DNA from: an uncultured Acidimicrobiales bacterium
Lineage (GTDB): Bacteria > Actinomycetota > Acidimicrobiia > Acidimicrobiales > SZUA-35
DNA: 54,117 bases
Direction: 5' to 3'
NCBI GenBank assembly: GCA_937922785.1
Contig: CALAJQ010000014.1
Location: forward strand, 1-54,117
Of the stretch, positions 34,507 to 45,749 are shown one piece after another. The translations under genes were made by a program, and so were the position numbers. The notes beneath the pieces were generated by a model. It searched no databases. It was given only the letters and a program-made list of their open reading frames with translations, and had not been told where the DNA came from. Each line of letters starts with the position of its first letter. Position 1 is the stretch's first letter.

Positions 34507-34950
34507 ATGGCGGTTGTGGAGCGCACAGTGTCGGTCAACGCAACACCCAGCGAAGTCTGGGCCATACTGGCGAACTTCGCTGCCATTAGCGGCTGGGCGT
34601 CCAACGTTGACCACTCCTGCCTGATGACCAAACAAACCAGCGATGTTGGCACGGTTCGACGGATTCAAAGCGGCGGCACAACCGTGCTGGAAACGGTCAA
34701 GGTGTGGGAGCCCGAGCAGCAACTCGCTTATGAGATCACGGGACTGCCGCCTGCCATCAAGAGGGTGACCAATACCTGGCGCCTGAGCCCAAATGGCCAC
34801 CAGACAGAGGTGACGCTTACCTCCGATGTGGATGCCGGCCCTCGCCCACCGCAGCAGTTGATAGCGAAGGTTGTAGGCAAGAAACTCGGTGAGGCTTCGG
34901 ACCAAATGCTGGCCGGGCTAACCGCTGCACTGTGGGGTACTCGTGTCTGA
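34507..34950 (+). CDS. SRPBCC family protein
   Basis: A 147-residue START-like/polyketide cyclase-fold protein of normal length: AVVERTVSVNATPSEVWAILANFAAISGWASNVDHS at the start, the ETVKVWEPEQQLAYEITGLPPAI strand region, and a long C-terminal helix (KVVGKKLGEASDQMLAGLTAAL). It should bind a hydrophobic ligand. The role is unknown. It has Shine-Dalgarno AGAAAGG in the leader and overlaps the sulfatase gene by 8 bp, so the two are coupled. Confidence 0.85.
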   Translation: MAVVERTVSVNATPSEVWAILANFAAISGWASNVDHSCLMTKQTSDVGTVRRIQSGGTTVLETVKVWEPEQQLAYEITGLPPAIKRVTNTWRLSPNGHQTEVTLTSDVDAGPRPPQQLIAKVVGKKLGEASDQMLAGLTAALWGTRV

Positions 34951-37531
34951 ACCCAAGCCCGACGTCATCGTCATCATGACCGACGAGGAACGAGCCGCGC
35001 CTTGGTACGAAAGCGCCGACGTCACCGCTTGGCGCCGCAAGACCCTCGCCGGCGCAACCTGGTTCGAGGACAACGCCGTCAACTTCGGTCGCCACTACAC
35101 CGGATCGCTAGCATGTGTACCCAGCCGACCGACGATCTTTACCGGCCAGTATCCCCAAGTGCACGGCGTCACCCAGACCGACGGGCTTGGGAAAAGCCAC
35201 GACGACACCCGCATGCGCTGGCTGCGTCAAGGCGAACTGCCAACACTTGGGCACTGGTTCCGAGCTGCTGGTTATGACACTCACTACGACGGCAAGTGGC
35301 ACATCAGCCACGCCGACCTCCACGATGAAGACGGGAACCGGATCGACACTAACGACGACGATGGCAACGTCCTGGCCGACGGCGTGAAGAAATACCGTGA
35401 GGCCGACGCGCTTGACGCCTTTGGCTTCTCGGGTTGGGTTGGACCCGAGCCCCATGGTGGTCGGTTGCGTGATACTGGTGTTCGTCGAGATCCGCTGATC
35501 GCGGATCGAGTCGTGGCCTGGCTTGAAGATCGTTACCAGCGGCGAGCCGCCGGAGACCCAGCCGCACTGCGACCTTTCCTACTGGTCGCCAGTTTTGTAA
35601 ATCCGCACGACATCGTGTTGTTTCCGGCCTGGGCGCGACGGGGTAATCCCCTCGACGCTTCACCGCTTGATCCCCCGACAATTGCAGAGGCCCCAACTGC
35701 GAACGAAGACCTAGCCACCAAACCGGCAGCGCAGATCGCCTTCCGCGAGACCTATGCCAGCGGGTACGGCCCACAACGAGCAGTGAATGCTGCCTACCAC
35801 AAACGATCACAGGAATATCGCGATCTGTACTACCGACTTCACGCCGAGGTCGATGCCCCGATTGACCGCGTCCGGCGGGCCGCCACCAACAACGCCCGTG
35901 ACGCAGTAATTGTGAGGACATCGGATCATGGCGATCTGTTAGGTGCCCACGGCGGCCTGCACCAAAAGTGGTTCAACCTCTACGACGAAGCCACTCGTGT
36001 GCCGTTCGCTATTGCCCGGGTGGGTACGAAACCAACTACCGGAGTCACCCTCGACAACGCCCCAACGTCACATGTTGACATCATCCCGACCTTGTTGGCG
36101 GCTGCTGGCATCAACGAAACCGAAACCGCTGCGGTGCTTTCCGAAACATTCACCGAAGTCCACCCGCTACCTGGCCGCAACTTGATGCCGGTTGTCGCCG
36201 ACCCAACCAAAGCGGACCCGCAGCGAGTCGTCTACATGATGACGTGTGACAACATGCTCGAAGGAGACAGTGGCGCGTCTGGGTTGGCTCGCCGAATCGG
36301 CCGTGAGTCGGCGCCTCCGCTGCCGTTGCGCATCAGCACCCCAGCTCATGTTGCCTCCAACTTTGAGGGTCTGGTCTATCGGGTCGATGGTGTGCTCTGG
36401 AAGTTGGTTCGGGTATTTGATGACCCCGCAACCTGGACTGAACCCGGGGTAAAGCACCTTGCCGCCAGTGGTGGCCCCGGTACGGATCAGTATCGCACTT
36501 CTCCCCTGCCCGACCAGTGGGAGCTTTATGACCTCGATAGTGACCCGTCCGAAGCAAACAACCGGTGGAACGACATCGCCGATGATGCCGCCATTGCCGG
36601 TGTGTTCTCCCAGATGCAGTCGGCTCTAAAGGCCGAGCGCGCCCGAGCTGTTCCTGAACGCAACAATCCTTGGCCGTATGAAGTTCGCCAACCCATTGGA
36701 GGCCCTTTGACCAAGTCCGTACCACCACCCGCCCGTGCCCTGCGCCGGCTCGTGCAGAAACTCGGTATGCATCCGGCCGACGAAGATGCCACCAGCTTCA
36801 ACCTTGCCGGTCGCCGAGCGCTGGTTGTGGCAACCAACGTTGGGGTGCTCGACATCGGTGAGCCCACCGGAGTGTTCGCCAGCGAGATGACTGTTCCGTA
36901 TTACGCATTCTTAGATGCAGGCATGAGCGTTGATGTGGCCAGTCCGCTCGGGGGCGTAATCCCTGTTGACCCGAAGTCGATCAAACCCGTGATCCGGACG
37001 GCCGAGGATGATCGTTTCCTGGCCGATGATGAGTTCAAAGCCAAGGTCACCGAGTCCCTGGCAATCGGTGAGCTCGATATGACCGACTACGACTTGGTCT
37101 TCCTCGCCGGCGGCTGGGGCGCAGCCTTCGACTTCGGCTTTTCCGAAGCGCTTGGCAACAAGATGACCGAGGCCAATGCCAACGGGCTTGTTATTGGTGG
37201 TGTGTGTCACGGACCGCTTGGCCTGCTTAACGCCAAGGCAACCGACGGTTCGATACTGGTAGCTGGGCGCAAGATCTCTGCTGTGACTAACAAGCAGGTC
37301 GAAGAGCTCGGGATCTCACTAACTCCCCACCATCCCGAGCGCGAACTTCGAAAGGCCGGGGCCGAGTTCGAATCCGAGACCAGACGACGAGACCCGTTAG
37401 CCAACCACTGGGTCGTAGACGGGAATTTGGTGACCGGGCAGAACCAGAACGCCGCTCCCATGGTGGCCAGAGAAATGATGGAGTTGCTAACCCATTCTGG
37501 GCGAGCAGAGATGACAGGACAACGAACATGA
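34943..37531 (+). CDS. Sulfatase fused to a DJ-1/PfpI-like domain
   Basis: An 862-residue fusion protein. The first about 570 residues are an alkaline-phosphatase-superfamily sulfatase. CVPSRPTIFTG (Cys58-Val-Pro-Ser-Arg62 to Thr67-Gly68) fits the C-x-P-S-R-x4-T-G signature where Cys becomes formylglycine, and RTSDHGDLLGAHGGLHQKW is the second metal site. Residues about 628-855 are a DJ-1/PfpI (class I amidotransferase-like) domain: RALVVATNVGVLD at the start, LVFLAGGWGAAFD and the nucleophile elbow GGVCHGP (Cys755). No signal peptide, so it is cytoplasmic. The domains are in one unbroken frame. Confidence 0.88.
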   Translation: MSEPKPDVIVIMTDEERAAPWYESADVTAWRRKTLAGATWFEDNAVNFGRHYTGSLACVPSRPTIFTGQYPQVHGVTQTDGLGKSHDDTRMRWLRQGELPTLGHWFRAAGYDTHYDGKWHISHADLHDEDGNRIDTNDDDGNVLADGVKKYREADALDAFGFSGWVGPEPHGGRLRDTGVRRDPLIADRVVAWLEDRYQRRAAGDPAALRPFLLVASFVNPHDIVLFPAWARRGNPLDASPLDPPTIAEAPTANEDLATKPAAQIAFRETYASGYGPQRAVNAAYHKRSQEYRDLYYRLHAEVDAPIDRVRRAATNNARDAVIVRTSDHGDLLGAHGGLHQKWFNLYDEATRVPFAIARVGTKPTTGVTLDNAPTSHVDIIPTLLAAAGINETETAAVLSETFTEVHPLPGRNLMPVVADPTKADPQRVVYMMTCDNMLEGDSGASGLARRIGRESAPPLPLRISTPAHVASNFEGLVYRVDGVLWKLVRVFDDPATWTEPGVKHLAASGGPGTDQYRTSPLPDQWELYDLDSDPSEANNRWNDIADDAAIAGVFSQMQSALKAERARAVPERNNPWPYEVRQPIGGPLTKSVPPPARALRRLVQKLGMHPADEDATSFNLAGRRALVVATNVGVLDIGEPTGVFASEMTVPYYAFLDAGMSVDVASPLGGVIPVDPKSIKPVIRTAEDDRFLADDEFKAKVTESLAIGELDMTDYDLVFLAGGWGAAFDFGFSEALGNKMTEANANGLVIGGVCHGPLGLLNAKATDGSILVAGRKISAVTNKQVEELGISLTPHHPERELRKAGAEFESETRRRDPLANHWVVDGNLVTGQNQNAAPMVAREMMELLTHSGRAEMTGQRT

Positions 37532-39652: not shown

Positions 39653-40315
39653 TCAGGGAGATCTTCGGTCCGGATCGGGAGCCAGTAGAACGGTCAGCGA
39701 ATCGCTTAGAACGACTTTTGTTTTGGCGACCGAGAGGTTGCGAACGCGACGCAGCAGGTCGATCGAGTCGAGTTGAGTCAACGTGTTGCCTGCTTCGATT
39801 GCCGAAGAACGTGCTCGCGGCGACATCTCTTTCAACTCGGGACCGAACTGAAGTTCGAACTGTTCACGCAGCCACTGTCGGTTCTTATCAAGCTCGTCAC
39901 GGACCCTGGAATTGTGGGCCGCGTTGTGGACTGTCGCCCGGAACATTGAGCCGTTGGTTTCATACAGTCGCAGTCGCATCGCAACGAAGTCGTCGAGTCT
40001 TTGTTTGAACGGACCCTGACCGATCTGGGCGAGGTGGGTCAACTCGGAGGCCTGAGCCTGACTGCGCTTGATTGCCGCTTCAACCAACTCACCAGGGTCT
40101 GCGAAGTATCGATACAGCGACCGCAACGACAGTCCGGAACGCTTCGAAGCTTGCTCGATCGACGGAAACATCATGTCCTCGGCGAACATTTCAAGAACAA
40201 CATCTAGCACGGCGTCGAGGTTGCGCTGCCGGCGGGCGGACCGTCCATCCACGGGTTCGGAATCAGACGGAGGGCGGAGTGCCGTCGGTGACTTGAAGTT
40301 GCGCATAGGAATCAT
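39653..40315 (-). CDS. TetR/AcrR family transcriptional regulator
   Basis: A 220-residue regulator. The helix-turn-helix lies at about 30-72: ARRQRNLDAVLDVVLEMFAEDMMFPSIEQASKRSGLSLRSLYRYFADPGELVEAAI, which is typical TetR. The all-helical remainder binds an unknown effector. I start at ATG 40315, which overlaps the stop of the upstream GST-like gene as ATGA, so the regulator is co-translated with the gene it probably controls. It should act on the symmetrical divergent promoter at 41512-41566. Confidence 0.87.
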   Translation of the reverse strand: MIPMRNFKSPTALRPPSDSEPVDGRSARRQRNLDAVLDVVLEMFAEDMMFPSIEQASKRSGLSLRSLYRYFADPGELVEAAIKRSQAQASELTHLAQIGQGPFKQRLDDFVAMRLRLYETNGSMFRATVHNAAHNSRVRDELDKNRQWLREQFELQFGPELKEMSPRARSSAIEAGNTLTQLDSIDLLRRVRNLSVAKTKVVLSDSLTVLLAPDPDRRSP

Positions 40316-41508
40316 AGGAGTGGACCCCACACTTCTAGATGGCCAGAACGCTCCACTCGACGAATGGTTCGCAAATCGAGCAGTGCGTCAATGCCAGCCT
40401 CGGCGAACACCTCACGGACTTTGACGACTTGACCGTCAGAGGCTGTGGCGAGGTCGTCTTGGAGGCGTTGCATAAGCCAGAACCGGTACGGCATGACGCT
40501 TGTAGTCAGTTCGATGCTTCGCCACGCAAAGGTTGCCGCACCCCCGGCAATTAGACCTCGACCACCGGTTAGACCCCGTGTCGCCGGATCATCTAGCCCG
40601 TTAGTTCCAGCCTCAATCTCGGGATGTTCTGCTAGCCACTGGTTGGCCACTTCAACATGGGCTGAGATCTCAGGGAGGTATTCCTCCGAGACGTATCTCA
40701 TCATGGCTACCAACGTCGCCGGCAGCTTGTCATCGGAAATGAGTTCATCGTCATCGCCGACGTACTCGTGCTGGTAACGCTCGGTGGTGGTCATCCGCTC
40801 GACCCACCGACCTACACGCGGCGCCCTCTGCTTTATGAGCATGGACGGAGCCGGATCTCGGTAAAGGTGGGCCCACATGGCAGCAATCAGACCGTAGTCA
40901 CCAATGGTCGGACGGTTGCCAAGCAGGTAGGGATGGTTGACGAGGTGCGCATTGAACAAATCGAGCCACTCGTGGAATGCGGTTTCGATTAGCGGCTGCG
41001 ATTCGGGGGTGACTCCGAACACCGTGGCTGCCTTGCGCATCCGCCCGCTGCTGTGGAGGAACATTTTCTCGGCTTGTTCGGCGGAGAGCTCTTGGGGCAT
41101 GGTGAGGGCGAATTCTGATGCGATGAAGGCCAAGTTCTGTTCATCGAAGTTCCAGCGGTAGTGCATGGCGGGGCGCAGCAGACCTTCGCCGCCGAACAGT
41201 TCGAAGACGTGAGCGACTGCCAGTAGCAGCGGCGACTCTGGATATGCGCTGGACTTTCGCAGGTGCTGGCCCGGGCCACGCTCGAAATGGTCGATGATGT
41301 CGGCGCCGTCTTGGATGATCGTGCCGTCAGGCGTCTCCATGCACGGGATGATCCAGCGGCCAACCGTGGGCACAATCTCGTTGAGGTAGCGATCGCTGCC
41401 CGGCGACACCTCAACAAAGGGGATGCCCTGAGAGCGCAGATAGGAGCGGGCTTTGCCGGTATACAACGACACGGGAGCGCCATACAGGGTGTAGTGATCG
41501 TTCATCAT
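40312..41508 (-). CDS. Glutathione S-transferase-like protein
   Basis: A 398-residue protein with an N-terminal thioredoxin-like GST domain (YTLYGAPVSLYTGKARSYLRSQGIPFVEVSP, then GRWIIPCMETPDGTIIQDGADIIDHFER) and an all-helical C-terminal part with LLGNRPTIGDYGLIAAMW (about 202-219), the GST helix-6 N-capping region. It is longer than usual. Actinobacteria make mycothiol rather than glutathione, so the thiol partner is uncertain. ATG at 41508 or 41505 lies 4-7 nt after a -10 TAGGGT, so it may be leaderless. It is coupled to the TetR gene by ATGA. Confidence 0.83.
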   Translation of the reverse strand: MMNDHYTLYGAPVSLYTGKARSYLRSQGIPFVEVSPGSDRYLNEIVPTVGRWIIPCMETPDGTIIQDGADIIDHFERGPGQHLRKSSAYPESPLLLAVAHVFELFGGEGLLRPAMHYRWNFDEQNLAFIASEFALTMPQELSAEQAEKMFLHSSGRMRKAATVFGVTPESQPLIETAFHEWLDLFNAHLVNHPYLLGNRPTIGDYGLIAAMWAHLYRDPAPSMLIKQRAPRVGRWVERMTTTERYQHEYVGDDDELISDDKLPATLVAMMRYVSEEYLPEISAHVEVANQWLAEHPEIEAGTNGLDDPATRGLTGGRGLIAGGAATFAWRSIELTTSVMPYRFWLMQRLQDDLATASDGQVVKVREVFAEAGIDALLDLRTIRRVERSGHLEVWGPLL

Positions 41509-41573
41509 TGCGACCCTAATGTATTGCGCCTTCAACTGGCAATTGGTTGAAATGAGAATTAGGGTCCACAGCA
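41505..41573. promoter_or_regulatory. Symmetrical divergent promoters with operator arms
   Basis: GACCCTAAT (41512-41520) and ATTAGGGTC (41558-41566) are perfect inverted arms 37 bp apart. Each contains a TAGGGT -10 read outward. On the minus strand TTGCCA (from 41537-41542) is 18 bp upstream of its -10, and on the plus strand CTGGCA (41536-41541) is 18 bp from its -10, so the two -35 elements overlap. The ATGs lie 4 or 7 nt (minus) and 7 nt (plus) after the -10. The adjacent TetR is the likely regulator. Confidence 0.6.
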
Positions 41574-42634
41574 TGCCTCCCCTCGTTTTGGCCGGCCAGT
41601 ACTGGTCTCCCTACACCCGCAAGATGCGCGCCGTGCTGCGTTACCGCCAAATCCCGTTCAAATGGGTATTGCGCGATTCCAAATGGGATGACCTGCCGAC
41701 TCCCCCAGTGCCGATCATCCCCGTCATCGCATACCCCAACGAAATCGGCGGCGGCTATAGCGACATCACCGTCGACTCCTCACCACAAATCATGCGACTC
41801 GAAACCGAGTACTCCGACCGCAGCGTCGTGCCGACTGACCCGGCGCTTGCTTTCATCGACATGCTCCTTGAAGACTTCGGCGACGAGTGGGTCACCAAGA
41901 TGATGTATCACTACCGATGGGCGTATGAGCCCGACATAGACAAAGCCGGCAAGCTGCTACCCCTTGGCCGTAACCTCCAACTCGATTCGGACCAGGCACA
42001 ACAGGGCTATGACTTCGTGACGAATCGACAGATCACCCGCCGGGCCCTTGTCGGCTCGACCGAATGGAACACCCCGCTAATCGAAGACTCCTACCGTCGA
42101 GTGCTGGCCATCTTGCAAGCACGGATCTCACGTGGCGACTTCCTGCTGGGCGACCGCCCCGGACGCGGCGACTTCGGAATCTTCGGCCAACTCACACAAC
42201 TCGTCCAGTTCGACCCGACATCGATGCAAGTTGCAGTCGATGAAGCTCCTAAAGTCATTCACTGGGTGGAACGAACCGACGATCTCTCATGGTTGCCAGT
42301 TGATGGCGACGACGGTTGGGCGACTATCGATAACCTCGACCCCGCAATCAATGATCTGCTTACCGAGTGTGGGCGAACCTATGCCCCGTTCCTGGTAGCG
42401 AACGCTCAAGCGCTGATGTCAGGAGCCGAAGAGGTCGTGTGTGAAATCACGGGGCTCGACGGGGAATCCCGTGAGTATCGTCAGGCGCCGTTCGGCTATC
42501 AGGGCAAGTGCCTGCGCTGGTTGCGCGACGCATACGCCGGGCTTGGCGACGCCGACCAGGCCCGCGTTGACGGCGTGCTCAAAGGAACAGGCTGCGAGCA
42601 GATAGTCCACCCAAACTTGGAACTGACGACATGA
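41573..42634 (+). CDS. Glutathione S-transferase-like protein
   Basis: A 353-residue protein. The N-terminal part (LAGQYWSPYTRKMRAVLRYRQIPFKWVLRD) is a GST/glutaredoxin-type thioredoxin fold, and LLGDRPGRGDFGIFGQLTQLVQFDP is the GST C-terminal domain block. It is a distant paralogue of the divergent gene ending at 40312. The ATG at 41573 lies 7 nt after the -10, with no Shine-Dalgarno. It overlaps the next gene by ATGA. Confidence 0.8.
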   Translation: MPPLVLAGQYWSPYTRKMRAVLRYRQIPFKWVLRDSKWDDLPTPPVPIIPVIAYPNEIGGGYSDITVDSSPQIMRLETEYSDRSVVPTDPALAFIDMLLEDFGDEWVTKMMYHYRWAYEPDIDKAGKLLPLGRNLQLDSDQAQQGYDFVTNRQITRRALVGSTEWNTPLIEDSYRRVLAILQARISRGDFLLGDRPGRGDFGIFGQLTQLVQFDPTSMQVAVDEAPKVIHWVERTDDLSWLPVDGDDGWATIDNLDPAINDLLTECGRTYAPFLVANAQALMSGAEEVVCEITGLDGESREYRQAPFGYQGKCLRWLRDAYAGLGDADQARVDGVLKGTGCEQIVHPNLELTT

Positions 42635-43220: not shown

Positions 43221-43886
43221 GTGAACTGGAGAGCGCTGCGCCTGTTTGCGGTTGCGACAGCAGCCCTTGCCTCGGTGGCTGCGATCTTATGGTTCTTGTG
43301 GTTACCGAATTACCGTCCAGAGCTACTTCCCGGCGAGCGGTTGGGAATTGATGTCTCGCATCACCAAGGCATGATCGACTGGCAAGCCGTTGCCGACGAC
43401 GGGATTGACTTCGCGTTCATAAAGGCAACCGAAGGCGGCGACTGGATCGATCCGCTCTTTAGTGAAAACTGGGTTCAAGCAAGAGAAGCAGGGCTCGAAG
43501 TCTCTGCATACCACTTCTTCCGAACCTGCACCGATGGGGTCCTCCAGGCCGAGAACTTTCTCGCAACTGTGCCCGCCGATGCCGATCTCCCACTGGCCAT
43601 TGACATTGAGGGTCACGGACAGTGCTCCCAGGCAGTATCTCAGGAGCAGGTCCGGTCTGAGGTTCTCAAGATGATTGACCTGATTGAGGCTGAACGAGGC
43701 CCCATCATTTTCTATGTGTTGTCGGGATTTGAGTATCTGGAAGACATCACCAACTCAAGACAGCAGTGGCAACGTTCACTTTGGAACCGCCCGGATAACG
43801 ACGAGTGGCTCGTGTGGCAATACTCGTTCCGCCAAAACGTCGATGGGGTGCAAGGTGGCGTCGACTCCAACGTCATCTCGAGCTAG
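43221..43886 (+). CDS. GH25 family lysozyme-like protein, membrane-anchored
   Basis: A 221-residue protein starting with GTG 43221. An N-terminal helix (about 8-28, LFAVATAALASVAAILWFLWL) anchors or exports it. The GH25 barrel begins LGIDVSHHQGMIDWQAV (Asp is part of the active site) and has FAFIKATEGGDWIDP, YHFFRTC and LAIDIEGHGQC with the Asp-x-Glu catalytic pair. It should cleave the peptidoglycan beta-1,4 bond, which suggests wall remodelling. It lies 8 bp after the unidentified gene. Confidence 0.88.
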   Translation: MNWRALRLFAVATAALASVAAILWFLWLPNYRPELLPGERLGIDVSHHQGMIDWQAVADDGIDFAFIKATEGGDWIDPLFSENWVQAREAGLEVSAYHFFRTCTDGVLQAENFLATVPADADLPLAIDIEGHGQCSQAVSQEQVRSEVLKMIDLIEAERGPIIFYVLSGFEYLEDITNSRQQWQRSLWNRPDNDEWLVWQYSFRQNVDGVQGGVDSNVISS

Positions 43887-43932: not shown

Positions 43933-45678
43933 ATGGAACCTATCTATGACGTTGTGTGGCCACGATCCCCGAGGGGTATCCAGCAGCGGCGCCGCGCAGC
44001 ACGCCTCGACACCTTGGCTGGCAAACGGGTGGCATTCTTATGGGACTATCTATTTCGTGGTGACGAACTGTTCCCGGTTTTGGCCGAACAGTTAGAGGCG
44101 CGGTTTTTAGATGTGGAGATCGTCGACTACACCGAGTTCGGCAACTTGCATGGAGCCGACGAAAAGGAGCGGGTCGCTTGCCTTGGAGACGACCTCCGAA
44201 AACGCCACGTGGATGCGGTTGTGTCCGGGATGGGCTGTTGAGGTAGCTGCACGCCCGCCGTGATGCGGGCATCCATAGCTTCTGAATCAGCCGGCATCCC
44301 GTCGGTGTCGATCGTCTGTGAAGGCTTCGCCGGCCAAGCAGCCGCCACTGCCCGCGGGCTGGGTTATGACGGCCTTCCCCTCGCAGTCACCGTCGGCCAT
44401 GTCGACGCCCAGTCAGCCGACACAATGATTGCCAACTTCATACAGAGGACGGTCGACGACATCATCGCAGGGCTCACCGACGACGAGACCCTCGATGCCG
44501 CTAACAGCACCGAGCCTGCAGCGCTTGACATCGCCGCATCCGGGACCATCGATGAAATCAACGAACACTTCACCACTGCCGGGTGGAGTGATGGCAACGC
44601 GATCATCCCGCCGACTAGAGACAAGGTCGAGCGTTACCTCGACGGTTCAGGTCACGACCCGTGGAAGACACTTGGTGTCGCTCCATCGTCGGGCCGCGAT
44701 CTTACGATTTGGTCAATCGCCGTGAACGCGGTCATGGCTGGGTGCAAACCAGAACACCTTCCGATTCTCATTGCAATAACCGAGATCCTTGCCGACCCGA
44801 ACTACGGCTCGGAGCACTCCGGCAATACTACTGGGGCCGACGCTTTGGTTATTCTCGACGGCCCCAACTCCGAGGCGCTTGGATTCAATGCCGGCCCAGG
44901 AGCACAAAGAGAAGGAAGGCACGCAAACACCAGCGTTGGCCGTTGGCTCCGCCTATACCTTCGCAACGTTTGCGGCTTCACCGCCGAAGAGCACGACAAG
45001 GCAACCTTCGGCAATCCGGCACGCCCGGTGTTGGCCGAAGACCACGACTACCTCCGATCACTTGCCCAGACGGTCACGTGGCCGTCGGTTGCCCAACAGC
45101 TCGGCTTCGGTTGGAGCGAAGACGTTGTGTCAATGGCACGCATGAACAGTGGAGTCCTAATTGGAAGCGTCTTCGGATCGACGCCAGAAGAGATCACTCC
45201 TTACTTGGCCAACGGGATCACTCGGGTTGCGTCATGGGACCTAACCCATGTGCATGGTCTCGGCACCGACCAATTCCAGCCGCTACTTGTGATCTCTCCC
45301 CTGCTGGCGCGAACGTTTGCCACCGCAGGCTGGGGACTAGCTGACGTGCAGGCCGCCTTGTTTGAACATGCCCGTATTCCGGCCCGAACGTTCGAGAACT
45401 TCATTGGCGAATGGACGAACCTCAGCGCAGGGAAACCGAAACTCGCCGATGTCGTGGCGGCTGGAATACTGCCTGGAGTGTTTGCAGAATCGGACGACCC
45501 AGAGCGTCTGGTGCCAATCGTGACCCGAGCCGAACGTCTACTAGTCGCAGTTGCTGAAGATCCGAACCGTGCGAACGCCTACGCGTTCGGCAATGACGGA
45601 CCACATGGGTGGTGGACGGCCAAACGCATTGACCACACGCCTGCCAGCGACCTCATCTGCAACATCGACCGCTCGTAG
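43933..45678 (+). CDS. UGSC family selenoprotein (in-frame UGA = Sec103)
   Basis: A 581-residue protein read through one UGA (44239-44241). The residues around it are VVSGMGC-U-GSCTPAVMRASI, so the motif is Sec103-Gly-Ser-Cys106. The sequence on both sides reads as one family protein: LAGKRVAFLWDYLFRGDELFPVLAEQLEARF before it, and ESAGIPSVSIVCEGFAGQAAATARGLGYDGLPLAVTVGHV after it. A SECIS-like hairpin starts 11 nt after UGA. Residues about 210-550 form an uncharacterised domain (NAVMAGCKPEHLPILIAITEIL, then TGADALVILDGPNSEALGFNAG). The Sec/Cys pair suggests thiol redox chemistry. The exact role is unknown. A stop at UGA would leave a 102-residue fragment. Confidence 0.85.
44242..44280 (+). 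promoter_or_regulatory. Bacterial SECIS-like hairpin after the in-frame UGA
   Basis: After UGA, 11 nt (GGTAGCTGCAC) precede a perfect 6-bp stem GCCCGC (44253-44258)/GCGGGC (44265-44270) with a 6-nt loop CGTGAT containing a G-U. A lower stem AGCT (44245-44248)/AGCT (44277-44280) can form around an internal loop. The 11-nt spacing and G/U loop match the E. coli fdhF-type SECIS bound by SelB, as I recall it. Confidence 0.7.
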
Positions 45679-45704: not shown

Positions 45705-45749
45705 AAGACGGAGTAAGTCCCACCCAGTGAGACTTACTCCGTCTTTTCT
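45705..45749 (+). terminator. Rho-independent terminator
   Basis: A perfect 15-bp stem: AAGACGGAGTAAGTC (45705-45719) and GACTTACTCCGTCTT (45731-45745), with an 11-nt loop, followed by TTCTC. It ends the UGSC transcript and insulates it from the amine oxidase operon. The stem is nearly symmetrical, so it may also work for the opposite strand. Confidence 0.9.

Follow-up and report, generated by a model that had tools for sequence, protein, structure and literature searches.

The window analysed here, a stretch of 54,117 nucleotides from an uncultured Acidimicrobiales bacterium, carries on its forward strand a long reading frame that starts at ATG 43933 and has one in-frame interruption, TGA 44239-44241, which is codon 103 of 581. 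That the frame from 43933 to 45678 is open save for this one UGA had been proposed from the letters alone, and translation bears it out. Standard gene calling splits the gene, as had also been foreseen: under translation table 11 one open reading frame ends at 44241 and another begins at GTG 44260. The features of the locus are as follows.

43933..45678, + strand: gene of the UGSC-U1 fusion selenoprotein (581 aa, Sec103, stop codon TAG 45676-45678)
43951..44478, + strand: UGSC domain, residues 7-182 (Pfam PF24696, E 1.1e-28; a profile search of the genome returns the same span)
44239..44241, + strand: UGA codon 103, read as selenocysteine, in the motif C-U-G-S-C
44253..44270, + strand: bacterial SECIS-like hairpin GCCCGC-CGUGAU-GCGGGC, 11 nt 3' of the UGA, from fold and constraint
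44545..45627, + strand: U1 (Unknown_1-type) domain, about residues 205-565, with the conserved C271; homologous to a gene that in other places stands by itself beside UGSC
45705..45745, + strand: likely transcription terminator, a 15-bp hairpin followed by TTTTC, shortly 3' of the stop codon

The terminator hairpin is exceptionally stable for its composition (dG -29.4, z -7.3), with 0 of 200 shuffles folding equally well; it does not appear in the list from our consensus scan, which admits loops of 3-8 only. Upstream, a gene of the glycosyl hydrolase family 25 (lysozyme-type; 43221-43886, + strand) ends 46 nt before the start of the selenoprotein gene.

Residues 7-182, the first part of the protein, match Pfam PF24696 at 100.9 bits, the cut-off being 25, and the U/C-G-S-C that defines this family is present as UGSC at residues 103-106, in the context VSGMGC-U-GSCTPAV. 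The NCBIfam equivalog model NF041046 scores 57.7 bits for the fused protein and 61.5 bits for the domain alone, below its cut-off of 125; this model would therefore not name the protein, which is filed under the Pfam family only. Outside the UGSC domain, the remainder of the protein has no Pfam match even at E 10. Judged by these comparisons, the window gene encodes a genuine UGSC selenoprotein of the Pfam family, and the assignment made in the original prediction holds on four counts: the PF24696 match, a Sec placed in a UxxC motif, a SECIS-like hairpin and the presence of Sec machinery. With other UGSC selenoproteins (PF24696, NF041046) the window protein has in common the Sec-Gly-Ser-Cys motif and the Pfam profile, whereas it differs from them in its place on a branch of the fused subfamily alone, in an extra Cys before the Sec and in falling below the NF041046 cut-off. 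For annotation this is a warning, since the fused form is both missed by the NCBIfam model and split under the standard code.

Neither the family nor the fusion is new in kind. The GOS survey reported 255 Sec-containing and 21 Cys-containing UGSC sequences, which puts UGSC among its most abundant selenoprotein families, and described it as one of the major ones in aquatic samples (PMC2398784); the original prediction had likewise placed UGSC proteins in metagenome selenoproteome surveys. A UGSC/Unknown_1 fusion has been in print since 2008 (Figure S1A of PMC2398784); its description, UGSC joined to a conserved domain without assigned function, matches, and judged by this it very likely has the same architecture as the window protein. 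The family is also listed in PMC13188914, PMC9312934 and PMC7539508. The passages of the GOS survey available to us give no function for UGSC, and its authors expected a thioredoxin-like fold (PMC2398784). In the parts of PMC2398784, PMC13188914, PMC9312934, PMC7539508 and PMC1088965 that were accessible, there is no statement on a pairing of UGSC and U1 genes or on kinship to GrdB. What the present analysis adds is U1 as the regular partner of UGSC, a link to thioredoxin and a distant kinship of UGSC to GrdB.

The UGA codon is kept throughout the fused subfamily. It occupies the Sec site in each of the 28 full-length sequences from the order (that of the window among them; pairwise identity 45-95%) and in every one of 80 named loci from a scan of GTDB genomes, an agreement well beyond what chance would give; the two sets overlap, so that the counts are not additive. 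The scan used two peptides from the C-terminal half as queries and is hence independent of the Sec site; the 80 loci are the best of 183 relatives, and the UGA was read by translation in 79 of them and from the DNA in L123, where an upstream TAG breaks the frame. By record title, these best 80 of 183 come mostly from Acidimicrobiia, together with other Actinomycetota, Binatia/Binatota, a Desulfurellaceae, Alphaproteobacteria and a Chloroflexi bacterium. Alignment A2 holds 73 of the named loci (L063, L072, L087, L107, L122, L123 and L133 are omitted). Within the order, the window protein finds a match in 149 of 298 genomes, in most cases via U1. Compared with five relatives, dN/dS lies between 0.04 and 0.21 on either side of the UGA; synonymous sites are close to saturation in these comparisons. 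Beyond the fused subfamily, Sec is frequent and not universal: 23 of 27 UGSC domains in a set drawn from the phylum have Sec and four have Cys, and of the UGSC units beside U1 in 19 loci picked by their U1 similarity, 18 have Sec and one (L214) has Cys, while in L169 Met stands in place of Sec.

A hairpin with the 11-nt spacing typical of E. coli had been proposed downstream of the UGA, and both its position and its fold are confirmed. Its folding energy is unexceptional: the 52-nt stretch has a z of -1.1, and 30 of 200 shuffles equal or exceed its stability. The evidence for the element comes from constraint. Among 131 invariant columns of the 28 order sequences (UGA column included, Met and Trp excluded), only five use a single codon, namely the UGA and codons 108, 109, 110 and 112; these four lie inside the hairpin and are the only invariant sense codons that lack synonymous variation. 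A sliding scan of synonymous variation likewise ranks the hairpin windows at the top, once the artefact at residue 185, where the columns consist largely of gaps, is set aside. Across 74 distinct sequences of the fused gene the five inner pairs are unchanged; three sequences differ in the outermost pair, one with A-U there and two with a combination that is not a standard pair. The fused-gene hairpin is thus constrained yet hardly covarying; in Rfam, no SECIS family is found among the four matches obtained up to E 10. Separate UGSC genes have a hairpin in roughly this position whose sequence differs, GUCGUGC/GCACGAC with a loop that mostly reads AGUNU. In 22 distinct sequences of this second hairpin 96.8% of the cells are paired and three of the seven pairs show changes on both sides; its covariation score is reached by 0 of 500 shuffles and its count of both-sided pair changes by 3 of 500. 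When the partners are slid by +2 columns, the covariation score is still 0.122, compared with 0.142 in register, yet only 52.6% of the cells are then paired.

The machinery for Sec insertion, whose presence the original prediction had suggested checking, is complete in the genome of the window: SelA, SelB, SelD and tRNA-Sec are all present above their family cut-offs, tRNA-Sec with 66.7 bits against 47, and SelA immediately precedes SelB. The SelD match of this genome (C16:164748-165671) itself contains one in-frame TGA, and this SelD is probably also a selenoprotein. Among 27 other genomes bearing the fusion, tRNA-Sec exceeds the cut-off in 26, including 22 of the 22 near-complete ones. It is found in seven of 20 genomes of the order that have no match to the window protein (five of 18 near-complete ones), these 20 being the ones listed out of 149.

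Could the UGA nevertheless be a true stop or a sequencing error, leaving two separate genes or a pseudogene? The two open reading frames obtained under table 11 are what such an account would predict. However, every sequence of the fused subfamily that we examined has UGA at this site, in what are several phyla by record title; purifying selection flanks the codon on both sides, the hairpin is under constraint and the genome encodes the Sec machinery. We consider a stop or an error highly improbable on these grounds, and insertion of Sec at UGA 103 is, from comparison of the sequences, nearly certain. None of the contrary outcomes that the original prediction had named, such as homologues ending at this codon or a genome devoid of Sec machinery, was found: the UGA site is kept in relatives and the machinery is there.

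The second half of the protein had been described as an uncharacterised C-terminal domain. With respect to function this description stands; the domain can now be placed, as it corresponds to a separate gene that accompanies UGSC elsewhere. A search of 396 genomes of the phylum with PF24696 gave matches in 29 genomes, 27 of them over the cut-off, with 44 places over the cut-off in total. In the 28 of these 44 places that were turned into loci, U1 adjoins UGSC every time, as a separate gene in 26 and within one open reading frame in two (L168 and L169). None of 28 control loci, all taken from the window's genome, has U1 in this position. Two places under the PF24696 cut-off (L170 and L171) lack U1; by eye they resemble FAD-type proteins, and they are not counted as UGSC. 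The pairing also holds in the reverse direction: among 20 U1 loci hand-picked from the list of matches in the order by similarity to the C-terminal half, UGSC lies beside U1 in 19, the exception stopping at a contig edge, although in L216 about 1.15 kb separate the two genes. This comparison identifies U1 as the regular gene partner of UGSC, and the window gene unites in one chain two units that in other genomes are mostly encoded by separate neighbours. Very probably UGSC and U1 work together as a single enzyme.

The genome of the window contains both arrangements. On contig C9 (L020:5734-7676) lies a second UGSC gene with a UGA, in the motif ADUGSCTSC, and its start codon overlaps the stop codon of a gene encoding a thioredoxin-U1 protein, which resembles the C-terminal half of the fused protein with 31% identity. 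This pair is the unfused counterpart of the window protein within the same genome. An N-terminal CxxC domain precedes U1 in 14 of the 20 hand-picked loci; single members give weak Pfam matches, and a profile built from eight of these domains of separate U1 proteins finds thioredoxins in the PDB with E 3.4e-6. The fused protein of the window has no detected thioredoxin domain. In U1 itself, one cysteine, C271 of the window protein, is kept in at least 97% of 16 fused and 21 separate sequences.

One-frame UGSC-U1 genes also exist beyond the window's subfamily: L168 and L169, as well as L214, the last judged from the order of its parts and its open frame. Of these, L168 has Sec and lacks C271. 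A quick tree places 20 rows of the window's subfamily on one side of a branch with an SH-aLRT of 100; L168 was counted there as "separate" despite being a one-frame fusion, and its branch is very long. Given that other one-frame genes exist, the fusion of UGSC and U1 may have arisen more than once.

Structure prediction offers a view of both halves. AlphaFold2 models the whole protein with high confidence (pLDDT 90.5, pTM 0.91) and predicts for UGSC a parallel alpha/beta, Rossmann-like domain in which Sec103 would sit directly before helix 106-119. Ranked against solved structures, this domain comes out highest with a de novo design (Z 11.3); PurE (about 10) is near the top as well, along with further Rossmann-like proteins, and the arrangement is a common one. 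U1 modelled alone (residues 194-570) reaches a pLDDT of 92.9 and a pTM of 0.92. For this domain Foldseek returns no match at E 1e-3 or below, the best being a class I fumarase at 2.1e-3, followed by orotic acid hydrolase; a comparison of U1 alone with 720 chains gives a best Z of 4.5, which does not in itself establish a novel fold. Two assignments for U1 were rejected. As a class I fumarate hydratase, the whole model obtains a Foldseek E of 2.4e-4, but with a probability of 0.60 and a TM of 0.15. As a GrdE- or GrdB-like subunit, U1 scores no better than 26 and 29 of 60 shuffles, respectively. PDB sequence searches begun from the protein and from its alignment yielded nothing useful.

A relationship between UGSC and the Sec domain of GrdB, the selenoprotein B of glycine, betaine and sarcosine reductase, emerges from profile comparison. 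A UGSC profile of 46 domains (19 of the 74 fused rows and 27 domains of the separate set, L168 included) aligns with a profile of 12 GrdB sequences with a score of 34.9 and a P of 3.3e-4, placing Sec on Sec and covering GrdB columns 196-416; the hhalign probability is just 38.5%. None of 149 column shuffles reaches this score (maximum 26.8), and the reversed profile scores 15.1. A further alignment joins UGSC to the C-terminal part of the gene preceding GrdB (E 0.002, 0 of 60 shuffles), which by its position we take to be GrdE. Searched singly, the second UGSC of the window's own genome gives weak matches to GrdB or to PrdB of D-proline reductase at the Sec site, and so do seven of ten UGSC domains in a search in which unrelated families appear with similar E-values, for example argininosuccinate lyase with 0.0015 for one domain. 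Of the curated GrdB and PrdB families, the window's UGSC domain matches only PrdB TIGR04483, with 11.8 bits against a cut-off of 300 and an E of 0.12, and TIGR01918 has no match at E 1e-10 in the window's genome. UGSC belongs neither to GrdB nor to PrdB; its scores fall far short of both family cut-offs. A remote relationship to the GrdB Sec domain is nonetheless probable from the profiles, the likeness being that of Sec on Sec along the C-terminal domain of GrdB. UGSC is shorter than GrdB, and by profile comparison U1, its partner, has no kinship to GrdE; the UGSC-U1 pair is thus not a simple copy of the protein B of glycine reductase. Full-length GrdB genes with a UGA occur in genomes of the same phylum (L193-L204 and further places), and many shorter matches, to the Sec region of GrdB alone and with one TGA each, are found as well, this order included.

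How might such a protein work? The reading towards which we lean, by analogy with GrdB and PrdB, is a selenol reductase that is fed by thioredoxin and binds its substrate with the assistance of U1. With the hairpin 11 nt downstream as its guide, SelB would bring the Sec-tRNA to UGA 103, a step that sequence comparison indicates. In the resting state, the selenolate of Sec could be held as a selenosulfide with C106 or C102; thioredoxin would reduce this bond and keep the selenolate in its reduced form, and Sec would then reductively attack a small substrate that U1 helps to bind, after the fashion of GrdB or PrdB. The fusion would serve to hold both subunits together. Feeding by thioredoxin is, to our minds, somewhat better than an even bet, and a GrdB-like cleavage of a bond in an amino-acid-like substrate is a more tentative proposal. 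Equally speculative is the broadest form of the idea, in which UGSC and U1 constitute an unrecognised two-subunit selenoenzyme, thioredoxin-fed and with a Sec domain of the GrdB type, that performs Stickland-type reductive cleavage outside the anaerobic amino-acid fermenters. If true, this enzyme would be widespread in the order, the window would hold the version with both subunits in one chain, and its substrate subunit, U1, would be one without a clear match among solved structures.

Two other explanations deserve consideration. UGSC might be a selenol oxidoreductase of the thioredoxin fold, such as a peroxidase, a disulfide reductase or a repair enzyme, with U1 as a module that binds a protein or small-molecule target. 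The UxxC motif would fit this idea, as would the thioredoxin domains fused to many separate U1 genes. However, the AlphaFold2 model of UGSC is of the parallel alpha/beta type, with a design, PurE and Rossmann proteins as its highest-ranked structures, though a ranking of this kind does not in itself argue against a thioredoxin fold, and UGSC itself compares with a thioredoxin profile at chance level (score 13.3, E 0.21), the yardstick being shuffled GrdB profiles with a mean of 14.3; we regard this possibility as unlikely. A little less likely still is a scheme in which U1 catalyses alone and the Sec domain serves chiefly for structure or for binding metal, or else detoxifies electrophiles or metals. 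U1 does have conserved residues of its own, C271 among them, and at the Sec site some UGSC units have Cys, and one (L169) has Met; against this stands the retention of Sec in the fused genes (80/80 and 28/28) and in the other sets (23/27 and 18/19), which suggests a role in catalysis. Taken together, the pairing with U1, the frequent thioredoxin domain and the resemblance to GrdB recast this orphan selenoprotein as part of an enzyme with two components, amenable to expression and assay.

The surroundings of the fused gene vary. A comparison of the neighbourhoods of 80 loci found no conserved operon. A regulator of the Lrp/AsnC type, recognised by eye, adjoins the fused gene in eight of these 80 loci, the window not being one of them, and gives a faint hint of amino-acid metabolism. 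Another lead, a transporter gene at two loci of one genome (L176 and L177) that we presumed to be of the betaine type, was dropped because its cluster mixes different ABC ATPases. In the window itself, two divergent open reading frames that overlap as listed (40312-41574 on the - strand and 41519-42634 on the + strand) both match the N- and C-domains of glutathione S-transferase. Further away, at 35114-35158 on the - strand, Rfam places the mycobacterial sRNA Ms_AS-5 above its gathering score, antisense within the long open reading frame 34943-37531.
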